In this document: piece after piece, positions 25,426 through 47,514 of the stretch
How positions within the stretch are numbered: position 1 is the first letter of the stretch
Layout of the letters: each line of letters begins with the position of its first letter
Assembly: GCF_028274965.1 (NCBI RefSeq)
Contig: NZ_JAQCNO010000004.1
Coordinates: 1 to 47,514, forward strand
Direction: 5' to 3'
DNA from: Natronomonas sp.
GTDB lineage: Archaea > Halobacteriota > Halobacteria > Halobacteriales > Haloarculaceae
DNA length: 47,514 nucleotides
The notes under the pieces: generated by a model
What the model was told of the DNA's origin: nothing
Database searches by the model: none
The model's input: the letters and a program-made list of their open reading frames with translations, nothing else
Translations under genes and position numbers: made by a program

Positions 25426-26544
25426 ATGGCCGCGGCAATCACAGTTGACTCACTCGATCTCTCCTTCAGGAACGAGACCGTCCTTCGGGACGTCGACCTG
25501 ACGGTCGAGGAGGGGGAGTTCTGCGTCATCATGGGCCCGAGCGGCTCCGGAAAGAGCATGCTCCTGAAAAGCATCGTCGGCCTGGAGACACCCGATAGCG
25601 GCGACGTGTTTCTCAACGGCGAGAACGCGTCGCGGCTCTCGGTCGCCGACAGAGACGTCGGCTTCGTCTTCCAGGAGTTCGAGGAGACGCTGTTCCCGCA
25701 CAGAAGCGTCGGCGAGAACATCGCCTTCGGCCTCGAACGGCAGGGCGTCGACGCCGACGAGATCGAGCGCCGCACCGACGAGATGCTCGAGTTGCTCGCG
25801 ATCGCGCACACGAAAGACGACGCCCCGCCGGAACTGAGCGGCGGACAACAACAGCGCGTCGAACTCGCCAGACAGCTCGTTCGGCGCTGTGACACCATGC
25901 TGCTCGACGACCCGCTGGCCGACCTCGATTACAAGCTTCAAAAGCGCATGGAGATCGAGATGCGGCGGATCCACGCCGACCTCGAGAGCGCCTTCGTCTA
26001 CGTGACCCACAACCAGGACCAGGCGCTGAAGCTGGCCGACAAACTGGTGATCCTCAACGGAGGCCGCGTCGAGCAGATCGGCACCCCGTCGGAGGTGTAC
26101 CACCAACCGGCGTCGGCGTTCGTCGCCCGCTTTGCCGGCGACAGCAACGCCTTCAAGACCACCGTCACCGGGACGACCGGCGACGCCGTCCGGCTCGATA
26201 CGGACGTCGGCGAGATGCTCGCAACGCCGATGCACGGCTCGGGCGTCGACGCGACGGGCATCGCGACCGTCCGGCCGGAGAACGTCGCGATCGGCGAGGA
26301 CGCCGCCGACGCGGACAACACCTTCGAGGCGACGCCGGCGGGTAGCACGTACATGGGCGAGGAGACCGAGATGGCCGTCGAGATCCCGGGGCTCTCCCGG
26401 CAGCTGCTCGCGACCGAACCCGGGCAGCGAACCCTCCCCGATTCCGAGACCGTCCTGGTCGGCTGGAACGCGGCCGACACCCAGTTCTTCGAGAAGCTGA
26501 GCGTGACCGACACCGTACAGATAGACGACCTACTGGAGATCTAA
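25426..26544 (+). CDS. ABC transporter ATP-binding protein 1 (MalK/PotA type), 372 aa
   Basis: Importer ATPase with a C-terminal TOBE-like regulatory domain (about 240-372). Motifs are Walker A GPSGSGKS (37-44), Q-loop FQEFEETLFP, signature LSGGQ (137-141), Walker B ending LLDDP (Asp161-Asp162), D-loop ADLD and switch His195. The second Walker B residue, normally the catalytic Glu, is Asp162. It is followed 2 nt later by a second ATPase gene, so the two probably pair as a heterodimer. Matching permeases and a binding protein lie at 29.7-35 kb on the other strand. The general type matches polyamine, opine or thiamine importers. Confidence 0.92.
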   Translation: MAAAITVDSLDLSFRNETVLRDVDLTVEEGEFCVIMGPSGSGKSMLLKSIVGLETPDSGDVFLNGENASRLSVADRDVGFVFQEFEETLFPHRSVGENIAFGLERQGVDADEIERRTDEMLELLAIAHTKDDAPPELSGGQQQRVELARQLVRRCDTMLLDDPLADLDYKLQKRMEIEMRRIHADLESAFVYVTHNQDQALKLADKLVILNGGRVEQIGTPSEVYHQPASAFVARFAGDSNAFKTTVTGTTGDAVRLDTDVGEMLATPMHGSGVDATGIATVRPENVAIGEDAADADNTFEATPAGSTYMGEETEMAVEIPGLSRQLLATEPGQRTLPDSETVLVGWNAADTQFFEKLSVTDTVQIDDLLEI

Positions 26545-26546
26545 CA

Positions 26547-27746
26547 ATGGCTGAAACGACACAGACGATCGACGAACCGACCGACGAACCGACCGGCGCA
26601 CCGGCGACCGAGGACATCCTCAACGTGAACGGCCTCACGAAGGTCTATCCGGACGGGACGGTCGCGGTCGAGGACATCAGCTTCAGCATCGCCGACGGGG
26701 ACTTCTGCGTGCTGATCGGCCCCTCCGGTTGCGGGAAGTCGACGACGCTGCACTCGCTCGTCGGGAAGTTCCCGATCACGGACGGCGAGGTCCTCCTTGA
26801 CGGCGTGGACATCACCAACACCGAGACGTACAAACGCGACATCGGGCTGGTGTTTCAGGACTTCCAGCTGTTCCCGCATCTCACCGTCGAGGAGAACATC
26901 CGCTACGGGCTCGAACGGCTCGAACGGCCAGGCGACGAGATCGACCGCAAGGTCTCGGAGCTCGCCGAGACGATGCAGATCGACGGCATGCTCGAGCGCT
27001 CCCCCGAGGAGCTCTCGGCCGGACAGAAACAGCGGGTCGCCCTGGCCCGCAGTCTCGTCCTCGAACCGAAGCTCCTGCTCCTCGACGAGCCGCTCGGGGA
27101 CATGGACTACAAGCTCCAGAAACGCATGGAGCGCGAGCTTCTCCGGATCCACCGGGAGTTCGAGACGACGTTCGTCTACGTGACCCACGACCAGACGCAG
27201 GCGATGCGTCTGGCCGATCAGATCGTCGTGATGAACGACGGGAAGGTCGAACAGTCCGGCAGCAGCTACGACGTGTACAACGCCCCCGCGACGGCGTTCG
27301 TCGCAACGTTCGTCGGCGACTCGGACATCTTCCGCGGCGAGGTCGCCGAGATCTCCGAGGACGGCTCGCGGGCCCGCATCGACACCAACTTCGGGCGCTT
27401 CGAGGCGTCGACGGCCAACCTGGAGTCGGCCCCGGCGGACGTCGTCGGCGAGCAGATCCCCTTTTCGGTCCGCCCGCAGTACATCCGGATCGACGACGCG
27501 GCCGAGAACACCCTCGAGTGCGACATCCTGGACGTGATCAACCAGCCGGGGTCGGGGACCCAACTGCTGTTGGAGGCAAACGGGGCCGACGGCGCCGTCT
27601 CCGAACTCCAGGTGAAGCTGACCGAGCAGGCGACCTTCGACGAGGACACGGTGACGATCGGCTGGGACGCCGAGCACGCGACGATGCTCGAACGGACGAG
27701 CGTCCTCCCGGACATCGACCTCGAAAAGGACGTCCTCGGGGAGTAG
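26547..27746 (+). CDS. ABC transporter ATP-binding protein 2 (PotA type), 399 aa
   Basis: Second importer ATPase, starting 2 nt after the first. Motifs are Walker A GPSGCGKS (58-65), Q-loop FQDFQLFP, signature LSAGQ (156-160, normally LSGGQ), Walker B LLLLDEP with catalytic Glu181, D-loop GDMD and switch His214. An acidic Thr/Pro-rich leader of about 24 residues precedes the fold, and a TOBE-like C-terminus follows. Walker B is canonical here while the signature is altered, the mirror of the first ATPase. This fits a heterodimer with one strong and one weak ATP site. It converges on the SDR gene. Confidence 0.92.
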   Translation: MAETTQTIDEPTDEPTGAPATEDILNVNGLTKVYPDGTVAVEDISFSIADGDFCVLIGPSGCGKSTTLHSLVGKFPITDGEVLLDGVDITNTETYKRDIGLVFQDFQLFPHLTVEENIRYGLERLERPGDEIDRKVSELAETMQIDGMLERSPEELSAGQKQRVALARSLVLEPKLLLLDEPLGDMDYKLQKRMERELLRIHREFETTFVYVTHDQTQAMRLADQIVVMNDGKVEQSGSSYDVYNAPATAFVATFVGDSDIFRGEVAEISEDGSRARIDTNFGRFEASTANLESAPADVVGEQIPFSVRPQYIRIDDAAENTLECDILDVINQPGSGTQLLLEANGADGAVSELQVKLTEQATFDEDTVTIGWDAEHATMLERTSVLPDIDLEKDVLGE

Positions 27747-29699: not shown

Positions 29700-30530
29700 T
29701 TACTTCCGGACGGCCCTGAGGACGATCAGCCCGGCGATCACGAGAAGCAGCGTCGAAAAGACCGTCGTGACGCTTCCGAGCGCGAACAGCTCCGGCTCGG
29801 GCCTGTCGGAGGCGGCGGCCGAAAACACCTGAATCGGCATCGTCGTCTCCTGGCCGACCAACAGCAGGCCCCGTTCGGCCTCGTTGTACGAGAGGGTGAA
29901 CGCGAAGACGGCGGCCCCGAGGACCGTCGGGAGGACCTGCGGGAGCACGACCTCCTTGTAGGTCGTGAGCGTGCTCGCGCCCATCACCTGGGCCGCCTCC
30001 TCGTTCTGTTTGAGGTTCGGCGGGAACCCGGCGAGGATGACGATCACCGCGAACGGCAGCGTCCAGACGACGTGGACCGGGATCGCGAGCCACAGCCCCC
30101 TGGAGAAGCCTAAGAGTTCGGCCAAGAACAGCCGGGAGCCGATCCCGTACGTGACGCCGGGCGTGATGATGCCGAGGATGATGAGATAGAGCAGCCCGCG
30201 CTGGCCCCAAAAGTCGTACCGGTACGCGAGGCCGGCGGCCGTCCCGAGCACCGTGGTGATGACCGTGACGACGAGCGCGAGTTGCAGCGAGCGAACGATC
30301 GACTCCCTGACGGCCTCGTTGCTGAACAGTTCGGCGTACGCCTCGAAGGTGACCCCGGCGAACGGGGCGGTGATACCGCCTTCGTTGAACGAAAAGACGA
30401 TGAGCGAGATGATCGGCGCGTAGATGTACAGCGCGCCGATCCCGAAGTACACGACCAGCGCGCGCTTCAGCGTGACGCGCTCTGTCAGTCCCGAGAGGAA
30501 CGACCTGTCCGTCCGTTGCTGCGTTGCCAT
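29700..30530 (-). CDS. ABC transporter permease (PotC type), 276 aa
   Basis: Inner-membrane permease with about six hydrophobic spans (roughly 23-47, 82-105, 113-130, 146-168, 200-222, 250-272). The EAA cytoplasmic loop that docks to the ATPase is visible at about 177-200 (NEEAAQVMGAS...PQVLP). It matches the second permease of polyamine/opine-type importers. Its partners are the permease at 32541, the binding protein at 33597 and the ATPases at 25426 and 26547. The start was set at 30530 by the TATA box at 30552-30561, which also excludes the longer frame to 30584. Divergent from the chaperonin-like gene. Confidence 0.9.
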   Translation of the reverse strand: MATQQRTDRSFLSGLTERVTLKRALVVYFGIGALYIYAPIISLIVFSFNEGGITAPFAGVTFEAYAELFSNEAVRESIVRSLQLALVVTVITTVLGTAAGLAYRYDFWGQRGLLYLIILGIITPGVTYGIGSRLFLAELLGFSRGLWLAIPVHVVWTLPFAVIVILAGFPPNLKQNEEAAQVMGASTLTTYKEVVLPQVLPTVLGAAVFAFTLSYNEAERGLLLVGQETTMPIQVFSAAASDRPEPELFALGSVTTVFSTLLLVIAGLIVLRAVRK

Positions 30531-30551
30531 TGGCACTCTTAGATAACGGTA

Positions 30552-30561
30552 CAATATAAAA
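30552..30561 (-). promoter_or_regulatory. TATA box of the PotC-type permease
   Basis: ttttatattg on the reverse strand, 22-31 nt before the ATG at 30530. Confidence 0.6.
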
Positions 30562-30656
30562 CGTTGTGATGGACGATCGCACACCCGAGGTGGACATTAC
30601 TGCACCCGCGGGCGGTTACGGACGGCCGGGCGCCGTCGGGGCGGCCGTATCCAATC

Positions 30657-30667
30657 GGTTATATGCG
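30657..30667 (+). promoter_or_regulatory. TATA box of the chaperonin-like gene
   Basis: ggttatatgcg lies 21-31 nt before the ATG at 30688, back to back with the permease promoter. Confidence 0.55.
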
Positions 30668-30687: not shown

Positions 30688-32442
30688 ATGTCGCTACAGG
30701 GCGGTGACGATGTCGGCGACGACATCAGCTTTCCGGAGGCGAACGTCGTTGCGGTCCGACAGCTGGCCGGCGCGTTGGCCACGACGTACGGCCCGGTGTC
30801 GATGGACAAACTGGTCGTGACGGAGGTCTCGACCGCCGAGAAACCCGACCCGAAACAGGTCGCGATCGACGACTACATCGTCTCGAACGACGGGGGAACG
30901 ATACTCGAGAAGATGCCCTTGGAACACCCCATCGCGCCGCTCGTCGAGGGGCTGATCGGTCCCGAACGCCCCGGGCGGACCGACGTCGAGGGACAGGACA
31001 TCCCCGACGGCGTCGTCGGGACGACCCTCCTGACCGCGGCGCTGTTGGACGAGGCCGTGACGCTCATCGAGCGCGGCCTCCACCCGACGGACGTCGTCTC
31101 GGGGTACGACGAGGCCCTCTCGATCGCCCTCGAGACCCTCACGGACGCCACGCGGCAACTCCCCGACGACGCCGACCGCGACCGGGAACCCGAGACGGCG
31201 ATCGCCCGGACGGCGATGACCGGCAACGACGTCGGCGGGAACCGCGACGCGTGGGCGCGGCTCGCGGTCGAGGCCGTCGATCAGGTCGGGATGCCGAACC
31301 AGTACTCCCTCGCCGTTCGGCGGATCAAACACGGCTCGCTTGACGACTCGCGGCTCGTTTATGGGACGATCCTCGACCGCAACGAGATCGCGAGAGACCA
31401 CATGCCGACGGCGATCGACGACGCGTCGGTGCTCGTCTTGGGCGGGTACGAACGCGACACCGCGAGCGACGGCCGAAGCGGCGGCCTCCGGGACCCGCAG
31501 TTGGGCGTCGACGCGACGCTCGACGTCGAGTCCCCCGCCGACATCGAGGCCTTCGACGAGCTCTACGGCTCCCGGCGCGACGAGATCGTCGCCTCGATCG
31601 TCGAGGCCGACATCGACGTCGTCGCCACGCGGCTCGGGATCTCCAACGAGTTTCTGGAGTTGCTCTCCGAGCGCGGGATCGCCGGCATCAGAGGCGTCAA
31701 CCGCCTGAAGCTCCGGCAACTCGCCAGGGCGACCGGCGCGACGATCGTCAACGACTCCGGGGATATCCGGGCCGAACACGCCGGAACGGCCGGGCGCGTC
31801 GAACAGCGCCGGATCCAGCGCCGCCAGCACCGCCGGAAGCACCGCAACATCGTCGTCTTCGAGGACTGTCCCGACCCCGATTCGGTCACCGTCCACCTCT
31901 CGGGGTCCGTCGGCGAGATCGGTGAGGAGGCGAGTCGACAGCTGCGGAAGGCCGCGGCCGCCGTCGCCATCGCCCGCGGCGAGGCCGACCGGCGGGCCGG
32001 GTTCGTCCCCGGCGGCGGCGCTATCGACGCCGCGATCGCCCGCGAGGTGCGCGACGCGGCGCCCTCTTTCGACAGCCGGTCGCAACTCGCCGTCGAGGCG
32101 TTCGCCGACGCGGCCGAAACGATCGTCCATGCGCTGGCGAAAAACGCCGGCGCGGACCCGCTCGGCGTGACCGCAGACGTCCGCGCCGGCGCCGAGACGT
32201 GGGGCGACGCCGCGGGGTTCGTCCTCCCGGCGGGCGCGGTCGGCGACGCCCTCGAGGCGGGCGTCCTCGACCCGACGGATCGCCGCCGGACCTCGTACCA
32301 GAAGGCCGTCCAGGTCGCGTCGCTCGTGTTGCGGATCGACGACGCCCTGGACGCGGAGTTCTCCGAGGACCCCGTCGATCCCGAGGAGTCGATCTACCCG
32401 GATCGGAAGAAAAAACAGATGGAGATGGCCGAGGAGACGTAG
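30688..32442 (+). CDS. degenerate group II chaperonin (thermosome/TCP-1 family paralogue), 584 aa
   Basis: Thermosome-related protein with all three domains. Equatorial N-terminal signs are ATTYGPVSMDKLV (31-43) and SNDGGTIL (66-73). The apical domain (about 214-360) has MPTAIDDASVLVLGG and RGIAGIRGVNRLKLRQLARATGA. Then come the intermediate region (about 400-450) with PGGGAIDAAIA and the C-terminal equatorial domain with SYQKAVQVASLVLRIDDAL. The GDGTT motif reads VVGTT (109-113), so the Mg-ATP Asp is Val110. The intermediate-domain catalytic Asp (usual LxDA) is Lys421 in LRKA. Inserts occur at 45-60 and near 155-170. It is therefore probably not an active ATPase. It might be an accessory subunit of a real thermosome or a specialised scaffold. 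It sits between two permease genes on the opposite strand. Confidence 0.85.
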   Translation: MSLQGGDDVGDDISFPEANVVAVRQLAGALATTYGPVSMDKLVVTEVSTAEKPDPKQVAIDDYIVSNDGGTILEKMPLEHPIAPLVEGLIGPERPGRTDVEGQDIPDGVVGTTLLTAALLDEAVTLIERGLHPTDVVSGYDEALSIALETLTDATRQLPDDADRDREPETAIARTAMTGNDVGGNRDAWARLAVEAVDQVGMPNQYSLAVRRIKHGSLDDSRLVYGTILDRNEIARDHMPTAIDDASVLVLGGYERDTASDGRSGGLRDPQLGVDATLDVESPADIEAFDELYGSRRDEIVASIVEADIDVVATRLGISNEFLELLSERGIAGIRGVNRLKLRQLARATGATIVNDSGDIRAEHAGTAGRVEQRRIQRRQHRRKHRNIVVFEDCPDPDSVTVHLSGSVGEIGEEASRQLRKAAAAVAIARGEADRRAGFVPGGGAIDAAIAREVRDAAPSFDSRSQLAVEAFADAAETIVHALAKNAGADPLGVTADVRAGAETWGDAAGFVLPAGAVGDALEAGVLDPTDRRRTSYQKAVQVASLVLRIDDALDAEFSEDPVDPEESIYPDRKKKQMEMAEET

Positions 32443-32540
32443 CGCCGCCACATTCGGGACGTCCGTTCTAAAACGAAAACCAAAACCGATCAGTGCCGCG
32501 TCCGACTCGGATCTCCCCTTCGATCGATGTCCGTCGGGCG

Positions 32541-33458
32541 TTAGGTCTGTGCGATGTCGGTGATGTCGACGAACCTGAGCAGCGCGAAGACGAACACGAA
32601 GATGACGACCAACAGCGCGACCGACATGGCCGAGGCGTTCGGGTACTGAAGCCCCCGGCTGACCTCCTCGTTGATCAGCATGCTGACGGTCCGCTCACCG
32701 CCGCTGAGGAACTGCGGGATGGTCAGGTTACCAACCGACAGCACGAACGTGAACAGACAGCCGATCGCGACCCCGGGGACGCTCAACGGGAGCGTCACGT
32801 TTCTGAACGTCTCGAGGGGGCCGCCCCGGAGCGTGTTCGAGGCGTCCAACAGGTCCTTGTCGATCTGCGACAGCGAGATGTAGATCGGCGCCGCCATGAA
32901 CACGATGAAGTTCTGGAGGTAGCCGACGATCTGCGAGAACGGCGAGAACAGCAGCCACTCGACCGGCGAGGAGGTGAGCCCGAGGCTCAAAAGCGTATAG
33001 TTGATCGCCCCGTTCGTGCCGAGGATCGGGAACCACCCCAGTGTCCGGATCGTTCCCGATGTCCAGAAGGGAACAACCAAGAACAGAAGCAGGATGATCC
33101 CGGTGATCTCGCCGGTGTAAAACCGGAGGAAGTACGCGAGGGGGTACCCGAAGATCAGCGTGATCACCGTCACGGCCAGCGCGACCACGAGCGTCCGCGC
33201 GAAGACCTGCAGAACGGTCCCTGAGAAGACGACCTCGGTCCAGGGATCGAGCGTGAACTCGAAGACGACGTTGAAATTGGAGTAGCTCATGAAGCTGTAC
33301 ACGACGACGACCCCCAGCGGAGCGATCAGGAACACCAGGAACCAGACGATGGTCGGCACCGACAGCAGATGCGCTTCCTGTAGTCCGAACCAACTCTCCC
33401 CCGAAAAGCGGGAGCCGGCGGTCGGGCTCGATTCGTTCGACTCGGTTTCGGTACTCAT
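32541..33458 (-). CDS. ABC transporter permease (PotB type), 305 aa
   Basis: First-type permease of a polyamine/opine-like importer. A soluble, acidic leader (about 1-28) precedes six hydrophobic spans (roughly 31-57, 86-110, 117-135, 172-196, 225-248, 277-298). The EAA-like loop is DLLDASNTLRGGPLETF...LPLSVPG (about 202-229). It would pair with the permease at 29700. The TATA box at 33483-33492 gives it a separate promoter. It lies 138 nt downstream of the binding-protein gene. Its stop is 98 nt from the convergent chaperonin stop. Confidence 0.9.
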   Translation of the reverse strand: MSTETESNESSPTAGSRFSGESWFGLQEAHLLSVPTIVWFLVFLIAPLGVVVVYSFMSYSNFNVVFEFTLDPWTEVVFSGTVLQVFARTLVVALAVTVITLIFGYPLAYFLRFYTGEITGIILLLFLVVPFWTSGTIRTLGWFPILGTNGAINYTLLSLGLTSSPVEWLLFSPFSQIVGYLQNFIVFMAAPIYISLSQIDKDLLDASNTLRGGPLETFRNVTLPLSVPGVAIGCLFTFVLSVGNLTIPQFLSGGERTVSMLINEEVSRGLQYPNASAMSVALLVVIFVFVFALLRFVDITDIAQT

Positions 33459-33596: not shown

Positions 33597-35000
33597 TTAC
33601 GCCGAGAGGAAGTCCCGCCAGCGGTCGGTCATGTAGTCGGCTTCGTCCGGCCAGATCTGGAAGAACCCGCTCCGATCGAACCGTTCGTCGATCGGGCCGC
33701 TGTCGCGGACGCCGCCGTCCGAGGAGGGCTCGCCCTCCTCGTCGGCCCACTCGTACTCCTGGGGATCGAACAGCGCCGGCTCCTCGACGGCCTGGTAGGT
33801 CGCCTCGCCGTTGTACGCCCAGTCGTAGTACTCCGGACCCATGCCCTCGCCGGTGTCGTCCGAGCCGTCGCGGACGAGTTCCGTGTTCTCGTAGTGCGGC
33901 ACCGAGTAGCCGTAGCCCTGGATGAACCCGGGGAAGGCCGCCCCGTAGTGGACGTCGATCAGGTCTTTGACGGCCTCGAGGTTGCCCCGGCTCGACGCGC
34001 CGGGGCTGGTCGGGACGACGCCGCCGTACCAGAACCGATACCCCTGGATACCGTCGGACATCGTCGCGTATGTACACGGCGTTCCGTCCCGCCGGATGTC
34101 CATCGCCGCGGGCTGCCAGACGTCCCCGAGGACGGCCTCCTCGCTGGACATCGTCGTGACCGACGAGCCGTAGGCCTCCCAGGACGACCGGAACTGCCCC
34201 GCCTCGGCCTCCTCGATGAGGAAGTCGATCGCGGCGTCCATCTGGTCCTGCGTCGGGTTGTTGAGCCCGCCGACCTCGGCGTCGAGCTGGTCGGTGTCGA
34301 GGAGGTGCATCAGGACCTCCGGGATCGTGATCGCCGCCGTCTCGCCGATGATCGTCTCGCCCTCGTACTGGTCGTCGAACATCGCGCTCCAAAGCGAGAC
34401 GTCGTCGACGAAGCCGGGGTTGTACCCGATGGCGTCGAAGTTGTACACGTGCGGGGGGAACCGGAGCTGCGTCCGCTCGTCGTCCTCCCACAGTTGTTCG
34501 GTCAGCGTGGCGGCCTGCTGGCCGAGGTGGCTGAGGCGCTCCTCGGGGTTGAGCAGCGCGTCGGTGATCGAGTCCGTGTCCCAGTTCTCGAGGTCATCGA
34601 CCGGCACCGGCTCCGTGACGTCGTTGTCGATCGTCATCGCGCCGCTGCCGGCGGTGTCGACCGAGATGGCGTCGATCGTCTCGTTCTCGCCGCCGAGGAT
34701 GCGCTGTTGTGTCGTCGGGATCGTCGCCGTCGTGATGTTGATCTCCCGACCGGTCACGCTCTCGAAGAGATCGCCCTGCGTCTCGCGGGCCGCCCAGGCG
34801 GGGCCGATCCACTCGACGGGGCTGGCGGCGTCGCCGCCGTCGCCGCCGTCGCCGCCGCCGTTGCCGCCACCGTTACCGCCGCCGTTGCCGCCGCCGTTAC
34901 CGCCGTTTCCGTTTCCGTTCCCGGAACATCCGGCGAGCATCGCCGCTGCGGCCGCACCGGAGGCGTACTTTACGAAGTTTCTTCTGCTGGGTTCCTCCAT
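33597..35000 (-). CDS. ABC transporter substrate-binding lipoprotein (PotD/F type, Tat-exported), 467 aa
   Basis: Periplasmic-type binding protein of a polyamine/opine-like importer, anchored outside the cell. The N-terminus has a twin-arginine signal (SRRNFVKYASG) followed by an Ala-rich h-region and the lipobox MLAGC (Cys25), as in haloarchaeal lipoproteins. A long Gly/Asn/Asp linker (about 26-57) follows. The fold starts near WIGPAW and includes FPPHVYNFDAIGYNPGFVDD, typical of PotD-like proteins. The start at 35000 is fixed by the Tat signal. The frame is open to 35123, but that has no function. A TATA box lies at 35025-35033. The ligand is unknown. Spermidine, an opine or a small cyclic amide acid are candidates. 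Confidence 0.9.
   Translation of the reverse strand: MEEPSRRNFVKYASGAAAAAMLAGCSGNGNGNGGNGGGNGGGNGGGNGGGDGGDGGDAASPVEWIGPAWAARETQGDLFESVTGREINITTATIPTTQQRILGGENETIDAISVDTAGSGAMTIDNDVTEPVPVDDLENWDTDSITDALLNPEERLSHLGQQAATLTEQLWEDDERTQLRFPPHVYNFDAIGYNPGFVDDVSLWSAMFDDQYEGETIIGETAAITIPEVLMHLLDTDQLDAEVGGLNNPTQDQMDAAIDFLIEEAEAGQFRSSWEAYGSSVTTMSSEEAVLGDVWQPAAMDIRRDGTPCTYATMSDGIQGYRFWYGGVVPTSPGASSRGNLEAVKDLIDVHYGAAFPGFIQGYGYSVPHYENTELVRDGSDDTGEGMGPEYYDWAYNGEATYQAVEEPALFDPQEYEWADEEGEPSSDGGVRDSGPIDERFDRSGFFQIWPDEADYMTDRWRDFLSA
34855..34920 (-). repeat. Gly/Asn-rich coding repeat of the lipoprotein linker
   Basis: A run of short imperfect repeats of the gccgccgttgcc type encodes alternating Gly and Asn. 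It forms the flexible spacer after the lipobox, a common feature of haloarchaeal lipoproteins. Such a tract may vary in copy number between strains. Confidence 0.6.
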
Positions 35001-47429: not shown

Positions 47430-47514
47430 GCGCGGGTTGCCGAGCCAGGCCAAAGGCGCAGCGCTTAGGACGCTGTCCCGTAGGGGTCCGCCGGTTCGAA
47501 TCCGGTCCCGCGCA
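47430..47514 (+). tRNA. tRNA-Leu (anticodon UAG)
   Basis: Complete type II tRNA of 85 nt with no intron. The acceptor GCGCGGG (47430-47436) pairs with CCCGCGC (47507-47513), and the discriminator A is the last base of the window. The anticodon stem CAGCG/CGCTG encloses the loop CTTAGGA, giving anticodon UAG (decodes CUA). A long variable arm (cccgtaggggt) marks the leucine class, and the T-arm is CCGG-TTCGAAT-CCGG. No CCA is encoded as far as seen. The ctatttttgg at 47397-47406 may serve both as the MOSC T-run terminator and as the promoter. Confidence 0.93.

Follow-up and report, generated by a model that had tools for sequence, protein, structure and literature searches.

Chaperonins are commonly regarded as general ATP-driven folding machines. 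In the window analysed here, a stretch of 47,514 nucleotides of DNA from Natronomonas sp., a gene for a chaperonin-like protein of 584 amino acids (30688..32442, + strand) lies between two PotABCD-type permease genes, of which one is transcribed away from it and the other towards it, and several residues of its nucleotide site depart from those of canonical thermosomes. The locus raises the question of what a chaperonin with such a site does, and whether its role is tied to the transport genes around it.

The chaperonin gene and its nucleotide site

An intact frame of 584 codons and a full thermosome layout had been claimed for this locus in a sequence-only reading, and both were borne out, as were the coordinates and the strand. 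The Pfam domain Cpn60_TCP1, which at full length marks the group II chaperonin (thermosome/CCT) superfamily, matched residues 26-554 of the 584 with 293.6 bits (cut-off 34.3), and solved group II chaperonins aligned across nearly the entire protein in HMMER comparisons, the best matches being a reconstructed group II ancestor (227 bits) and the Thermoplasma alpha subunit (189 bits). The NCBIfam equivalog cut-offs for thermosome subunits were missed both for alpha (282.7 of 450 bits) and for beta (279.7 of 400 bits). An AlphaFold2 model based on a 19-row alignment reached a mean pLDDT of 81.5 and a pTM of 0.79, with low-confidence stretches at residues 1-13, 92-107, 256-263 and 553-560. Six chaperonin places, including the gene studied here, were found in the source assembly (2.28 Mb, 73 contigs); four of the others scored 477-613 Pfam bits and carry the canonical Asp and the GDGTT motif in the alignment, and the remaining one is a fragment at a contig end. 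Judged by homology, 30688-32442 encodes a thermosome (group II chaperonin) paralogue of full length that belongs to a haloarchaeal family.

A TATA-like element (TTATAT, 30659..30664, + strand, judged by eye) is located 29 bases before the ATG, in agreement with the TATA box attributed to the gene earlier, and AT-rich elements were seen by eye at a similar distance upstream in most relatives; the chaperonin gene presumably has a leaderless start. The long antisense open reading frame at 30694-32451 (- strand) was dropped as a gene on a rule of thumb for GC-rich coding DNA. A PADLOC search for known defence proteins gave no match for the paralogue.

Active-site residues were read from an alignment of 63 rows, namely 19 family members and 44 canonical haloarchaeal thermosomes, the latter being near neighbours returned by the search together with the four of the same genome rather than a random sample. 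The rows exclude L006 (a fragment), L011 and L038 (both repeats) as well as L005 and L007, which are loci of the window itself. As had been claimed, the catalytic Asp of the intermediate domain is replaced by a Lys, K421 (31948..31950, + strand): this position holds Asp in 44/44 canonical rows and in none of the 19 family members, which have Lys (18) or Gln (1). The companion claim, a Val110 in place of the GDGTT Asp, proved to be a register error, since the reading VVGTT was shifted by three residues. D107 (31006..31008, + strand) of the stretch IPDGVVGTT aligns with that Asp, both against solved chaperonins in HMMER and in the 63-row alignment, and is kept in 19/19 members. Of the supposed loss of both ATPase aspartates, the replacement at position 421 therefore stands, but the GDGTT Asp is retained. 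The NDG Asp of canonical thermosomes is present as well (D68, 30889..30891, + strand, 19/19 in the same alignment) and corresponds in position to one of the pair of acids for which activation of the attacking water has been proposed.

Changes at S38, V109 and N180-D181, all encoded on the + strand, were absent from the sequence-only reading. S38 (30799..30801) replaces the P-loop Gly of GP[KR]G, with Ser in 13 and Pro in 6 of the 19 members and Gly in 44/44 canonical rows, and V109 (31012..31014) replaces the GDGT Thr, the family having Val (17) or Ile (2) and the canonical rows Thr (44/44). At N180-D181 (31225..31230), the Lys-Gly of the nucleotide-sensing TGKG loop, found in 44/44 canonical rows, is replaced in 19/19 members, leaving Asn at the place of the sensing Lys throughout the family. 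We take this Lys to be K161 of Mm-Cpn. Seven further loci, five of them new, also show TGND and R[KQ]; among the seven, L090 is L051 over again, and one and the same gene seems to underlie L085 and L101. Gln rather than Lys at 421 was observed in both L039 and L086.

According to the available part of PMC5019054, the D386A variant of Mm-cpn binds ATP without hydrolysing it and stays trapped in an open, ATP-bound state. For the chaperonin Ch-CPN, the excerpted text of PMC5635000 places Asp56, Asp87 and Asp373 at the site, with Asp87, Thr89 and Thr91 binding the phosphates, and reports that 4.7% of basal activity was left in D373A after 1 h at 65 °C and that activity was severely diminished in R155E and R155L. 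From its conserved position, the TGKG Lys is probably the group II counterpart of Ch-CPN Arg155, and it presumably corresponds to Lys165 of TKS1-CPN, a residue named in the same excerpt.

On this alignment, one of three acidic active-site residues is gone from the paralogue, and the Mg-binding Asp and one of the acids proposed to activate water are kept. The second acid, the presumed gamma-phosphate sensor and a phosphate-binding Thr are missing, so that a loss of ATP hydrolysis is the likely outcome, one that the mutants of other chaperonins strongly imply. Nucleotide binding by the paralogue may persist. Some residual ATPase activity is possible given that D68 and D107 are intact and that D181 could perhaps act as a substitute acid. 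The paralogue might even still be an ATPase with a re-arranged active site, in which an Asp has moved into the TGND loop and a Lys onto the intermediate-domain helix in a reciprocal acid/base swap. Such a swap would be in line with the conservation of N180, D181, D68 and D107 (19/19 each) and of K421 (18/19), but it fits poorly with the Gln at 421 in L039 and L086, with the additional loss of the GDGT Thr and the P-loop Gly, and with the severe drop of Ch-CPN activity after acidic or neutral replacement of the sensor Arg (PMC5635000, excerpted text). We therefore consider a working, swapped ATPase quite unlikely.

Distribution and constraint of the paralogue family

Among 146 genomes of the family, the search returned the window and three relatives at 466-527 bits, the other chaperonins listed reaching at most 201 bits. 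When 392 genomes of the order were searched with a profile, the window plus 14 more scored 602 bits or above, followed by a drop to 318 bits. In this search, three candidates per genome were scored for the chaperonin and four for the substrate-binding protein (SBP) of the neighbouring importer, so that carriers could be missed; a repeat with 10 and 13 candidates, respectively, revealed no missed carrier among the genomes of family group f7 in that draw. The 125 genomes of f7, searched with ten candidates each, contained nine carriers, seven known and two new. A draw of 294 genomes from the phylum, some of them belonging to the order, added no carrier, the best match besides the window being 380 bits.

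The carriers in the 392-genome draw fall in six family groups (f1, f4, f5, f7, f12 and f17), and Halorientalis pallida and Halorarius halobius are among the named carriers. Eight plasmids of Natronorubrum, Halarchaeum, Haladaptatus, Haloarcula and Halobellus carry copies annotated as 'TCP-1/cpn60 chaperonin family protein', of which at least four (Haloarcula litorea, Haladaptatus QDMS2, Haladaptatus halobius and Natronorubrum bangense) seem to be the same as G017, G249, G310 and G708. Among the genomes searched, the paralogue family was found only in Halobacteriales. With at least 19 aligned members, the gene being unique to the window was ruled out. Searches of the open-access literature showed no publication on such a clade.

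In a 46-row tree that contained haloarchaeal rows and no eukaryotic ones, the 19 members form one clade (support 100/100), which is placed among the haloarchaeal thermosomes (88/88) on a stem of 1.47 changes per column that drew the program's long-branch warning. Constraint was shown in close relatives: dN/dS, calculated according to Nei-Gojobori over 18 members with L051 left out, was 0.11-0.17 for the six pairs among L043, L044, L047 and L049 and 0.15 for L045-L048, and it went up to 0.28 in the pairs that follow. For the five pairs nearest to the window (identity 50-52%, third positions 91% GC) it was 0.39-0.58, values that are unusable since dS is near saturation, so that for the window copy constraint is supported by the fixed motifs and the intact frame. 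The dN/dS comparison, which had been suggested earlier as a check, can accordingly be read for the close relatives, but divergence is too high for a verdict on the pairs that involve the window.

The claim that the gene is not simply decayed held up, given these low ratios in close pairs and the fixation of K/Q421, S/P38, V/I109 and N180 across the 19 members. A pseudogene was ruled out by the intact frames in the aligned members together with the close-pair dN/dS. A shortened C-terminus was seen only in L051 (G310/Haladaptatus halobius).

Co-occurrence with a PotABCD-type importer

The gene divergent from the chaperonin gene encodes the PotC-like ABC permease C (29700..30584, - strand, exact start uncertain), and the convergent one the PotB-like permease B (32541..33458, - strand). 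Further importer genes code for an SBP bearing a Tat signal and a lipobox (33597..34994, - strand, with an uncertain start upstream of 34994) and for two ABC ATPases on the + strand, ATPase 2 at 25426..26544 and ATPase 1 (ABC_tran, TOBE_2) at 26547..27746. The left three quarters of the window (199-35941) are mostly taken up by a catabolic cluster for cyclic amides of the hydantoin, pyrimidine or 5-oxoproline type. Its genes, named by similarity to annotated plasmid genes, include a PuuE-like deacetylase, an Asp/Glu racemase, HyuA/HyuB, a carbamoylase-type hydrolase, PxpABC, a biotin carboxylase, a dihydropyrimidinase-type amidohydrolase, an asparaginase and others.

The gene content of the cluster varies widely across 24 loci, a number that includes some places twice. 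Little beyond the importer is left in the Haloarcula litorea locus, and the deacetylase was absent from the approximately 17 kb looked at in the Haloarcula litorea and Halorarius loci. In many loci having it, the polysaccharide deacetylase (1918-2799) shares 78-98% identity with its Natronorubrum bangense counterpart, against 34-39% in three; compared to this very slowly evolving neighbour, the chaperonin is only about 50% identical across loci. A tRNA-Leu gene occupies the window end (47430-47514) and, as the cluster has relatives on plasmids, might serve as a site of integration.

Strict co-occurrence of the paralogue with the SBP of the importer, a matter outside the scope of the sequence-only reading, was shown in the genomes searched. 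The chaperonin was present in 15 of the 392 order genomes and the SBP (E 1e-30 or better) in the identical 15 and in 0/377 others, whereby the relatedness of genomes inflates any probability attached to such a co-occurrence, although these carriers come from six family groups. In f7, both were found in the same nine of the 125 genomes, seven of them shared with the order set, and in 0/116 others. Among 72,556 plasmids, chaperonin and SBP lie on the same eight, with SBP scores of at least 456 bits and a next-best record, out of 137 with a match, of 155 bits; at least four of the eight seem already counted among the genomes, so the sets overlap. The gap between chaperonin and SBP gene is about 1 kb in 14 of the 17 carriers measured and 16-18 kb in the other three.

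Permeases, deacetylase and HyuA were followed in 14 carriers and 60 hand-picked non-carriers spread over the family groups. Permease B scored at least 350 bits in 14/14 carriers and at most 156 bits in the non-carriers, and permease C at least 327 and at most 114 bits, respectively. In contrast, a close deacetylase (at least 541 bits) was present in 11/14 carriers, with up to 474 bits in a non-carrier, and HyuA was matched in 71/74 genomes, with its best match in a non-carrier. Since the permeases are exclusive to carriers and both enzymes are not, the link is one with the importer rather than with the deacetylase or HyuA, and these two catabolic genes, the ones tested, were ruled out as the common denominator.

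These data bear on the possibility that one of the catabolic enzymes in the cluster is the client, with the paralogue as its dedicated chaperone or scaffold; MmoG of the methane monooxygenase operons, for which such a role has been proposed, would be the precedent (PMC9324122, available part). The cluster is rich in multi-subunit or metal enzymes such as HyuA/HyuB, PxpABC, the dihydropyrimidinase-type hydrolase and the deacetylase, and related alphaproteobacterial clusters have a CobW-type GTPase and no annotated chaperonin. However, neither of the two catabolic genes tested is common to all carriers, the deacetylase is also fairly close in some non-carriers and lacking within about 17 kb in the Haloarcula litorea and Halorarius loci, and HyuA is widespread. 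An enzyme client thus appears unlikely.

The distances among chaperonins and among SBPs of 16 carriers were correlated in a Mantel-type test (r 0.885, 0/5000 permutations as high), a value that cannot separate interaction from co-inheritance because the latter alone would give the same. Genes moving together on plasmids co-occur without interacting, which counts against reading the paralogue as a dedicated accessory. It could instead be a duplicated thermosome gene that rides on catabolic plasmids and has no role in transport, being plasmid-borne in several species and in clusters of varying content. Against such a passenger speak the constraint in close pairs and the presence of the gene in every importer carrier found despite the varying clusters, even where 16-18 kb separate it from the SBP gene, and we regard it as extremely unlikely.

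The next plasmid relatives of the SBP are about 30% identical and, among the names listed, mainly rhizobial or other alphaproteobacterial. In loci of Pararhizobium, Thioclava and Agrobacterium, the genes are arranged much alike (ATPase, permeases, SDRs, SBP, ATPase, deacetylase) and are followed by those for a small unknown protein and a GTP-binding protein, which is of the CobW type in the two scanned. An annotated chaperonin was absent from these three alphaproteobacterial plasmid loci, and a twin-arginine motif was found in the two alphaproteobacterial SBPs read at the N-terminus. In the alphaproteobacterial clusters L104 (12422-13817) and L105 (12150-13456), the related importer is accompanied by a CobW-type GTPase and by a small protein that has no Pfam match, and these two possibly fill the accessory role in bacteria. 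A more distant importer is present in G170, a haloarchaeal genome that lacks the paralogue, which suggests that the general transporter type needs no such chaperonin. Like the three plasmid loci, G170 counts against a dedicated accessory role. With its next plasmid relatives being mainly rhizobial and other alphaproteobacterial, the importer may have come from bacteria.

Proposed role and comparison with known chaperonins

The insert noted earlier near residues 45-60 was found as an enlarged stem loop of the equatorial domain (30820..30867, + strand), of variable length in 19/19 family members and in 0/44 canonical rows. The one placed at 155-170 amounts to about three to five residues relative to solved chaperonins, and the clearer inserts are these: besides 45-60, the family insert GPERPG (with variants) at residues 91-98 (30958..30981, + strand) before the phosphate-binding loop, and a further one at about 252-264 whose length differs between members. 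A conserved family tail at the C-terminus, with the majority form DATFxxEPxxPGDxIYDE... (32353..32439, + strand), stands where the canonical rows have a Gly/Met-rich end and is missing in L051. In the N-terminal tail (residues 1-14), mean pairwise identity is 15% within the family versus 69% within 15 of the 44 canonical rows. L051 and L090 (Haladaptatus halobius plasmid), which lack the C-terminal tail, have a TGA reported inside the match.

In Ch-CPN, the inter-subunit sheet is built from the stem loop together with one strand from each terminus, as far as the excerpt of PMC5635000 describes it. Because the corresponding elements, namely the N segment, the C end and the stem loop, are remodelled in the paralogue, this comparison argues against a simple mixing with Cct1-3. 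The sequence-only reading had proposed a non-ATPase role, either as a regulatory subunit in hetero-oligomers or as a scaffold for another protein. A non-hydrolysing regulatory subunit that joins a Cct thermosome would find potential partners in the four other chaperonin places of the same genome (477-613 Pfam bits, plus the fragment), and hetero-oligomeric archaeal rings are known (available parts of PMC5983026 and PMC4746591). However, the N segment and the C end are replaced, the stem loop is enlarged, and the paralogue tracks the importer and not the thermosome, which matched in 392/392 genomes. Nothing found points to a regulatory Cct subunit, and we judge it very improbable; the exclusive link with the importer favours the other half of the proposal, a scaffold or chaperone for another protein.

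We suggest, with a probability of roughly 0.4, that the hydrolysis-deficient chaperonin is a dedicated holding or assembly factor for the PotABCD-type importer, most likely for its Tat-exported SBP. On this reading, the clade has dropped part of the hydrolysis chemistry, has retained its fold along with the Mg-binding Asp and some of the nucleotide site, and has turned into a dedicated accessory of one importer in variable, often plasmid-borne clusters. Most likely, it would then hold or assemble an importer protein as a chaperone that does not cycle and that binds nucleotide at most. The client would most probably be the SBP, for which folding in the cytoplasm is required ahead of Tat export; both the holding activity and the identity of the client are what we infer from this arrangement. 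Twin-arginine signals are present in the SBPs of the carriers, and the SBP otherwise looks ordinary, with PF13416 in 9/17 members, which speaks against the proposed role. The SBPs of L078 (10083-11447) and L083 (4008-5372), both of f17 (G307 and G310), have the twin-arginine motif and no lipobox Cys.

A more far-reaching version, which we offer as a tentative and rather doubtful possibility, is that this group II chaperonin has become indispensable to one ABC importer, as an obligate part that serves its biogenesis or its operation without any hydrolysis. The charge swap near the gamma-phosphate, from Lys-Gly to Asn-Asp in the sensing loop and from Asp to Lys on the intermediate helix, would here give rise to a nucleotide-locked clamp or cage. 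Since cultured haloarchaea are among the carriers, direct testing is feasible, and the family would be a manageable system in which to explore what the chaperonin fold can do without ATP turnover and why a transport system would need a chaperonin of its own.

With the archaeal thermosome (Cct1-3, Mm-Cpn), the paralogue shares near full-length homology and domain order as well as Gly-Pro, the NDG Asp, the GDG Asp, GGGA and RIDDAL. It differs by the change from Asp to Lys at the intermediate-domain acid, by the loss of the P-loop Gly, the GDGT Thr and the TGKG Lys, and by the stem-loop, GPERPG and apical inserts together with the new C-terminal tail. The group III chaperonin Ch-CPN likewise departs from group II in the nucleotide-sensing loop, but it is bacterial and an active ATPase that retains Arg155, Asp56 and Asp373, according to the excerpted text of PMC5635000. 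MmoG, encoded in soluble methane monooxygenase operons, is a similar case of a chaperonin gene beside the genes of one system whose client it is thought to serve; in contrast to the paralogue, it is GroEL-like, has an enzyme as its client and was modelled by homology without a built-in lid (PMC9324122, available part).

The vertebrate proteins BBS6/10/12 and CCT8L are, as described in the accessible portion of PMC2846930, also fast-evolving group II paralogues with an altered hydrolysis motif, a retained Gly-Pro and a specialised role. They derive from CCT8 in eukaryotes, whereas the clade described here is archaeal, linked to an importer and located in variable, often plasmid-borne clusters. 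An entire archaeal clade in which some of the hydrolysis chemistry is gone, whose genes remain intact and which occurs only together with one importer would represent a prokaryotic parallel to the BBS chaperonin-like proteins.
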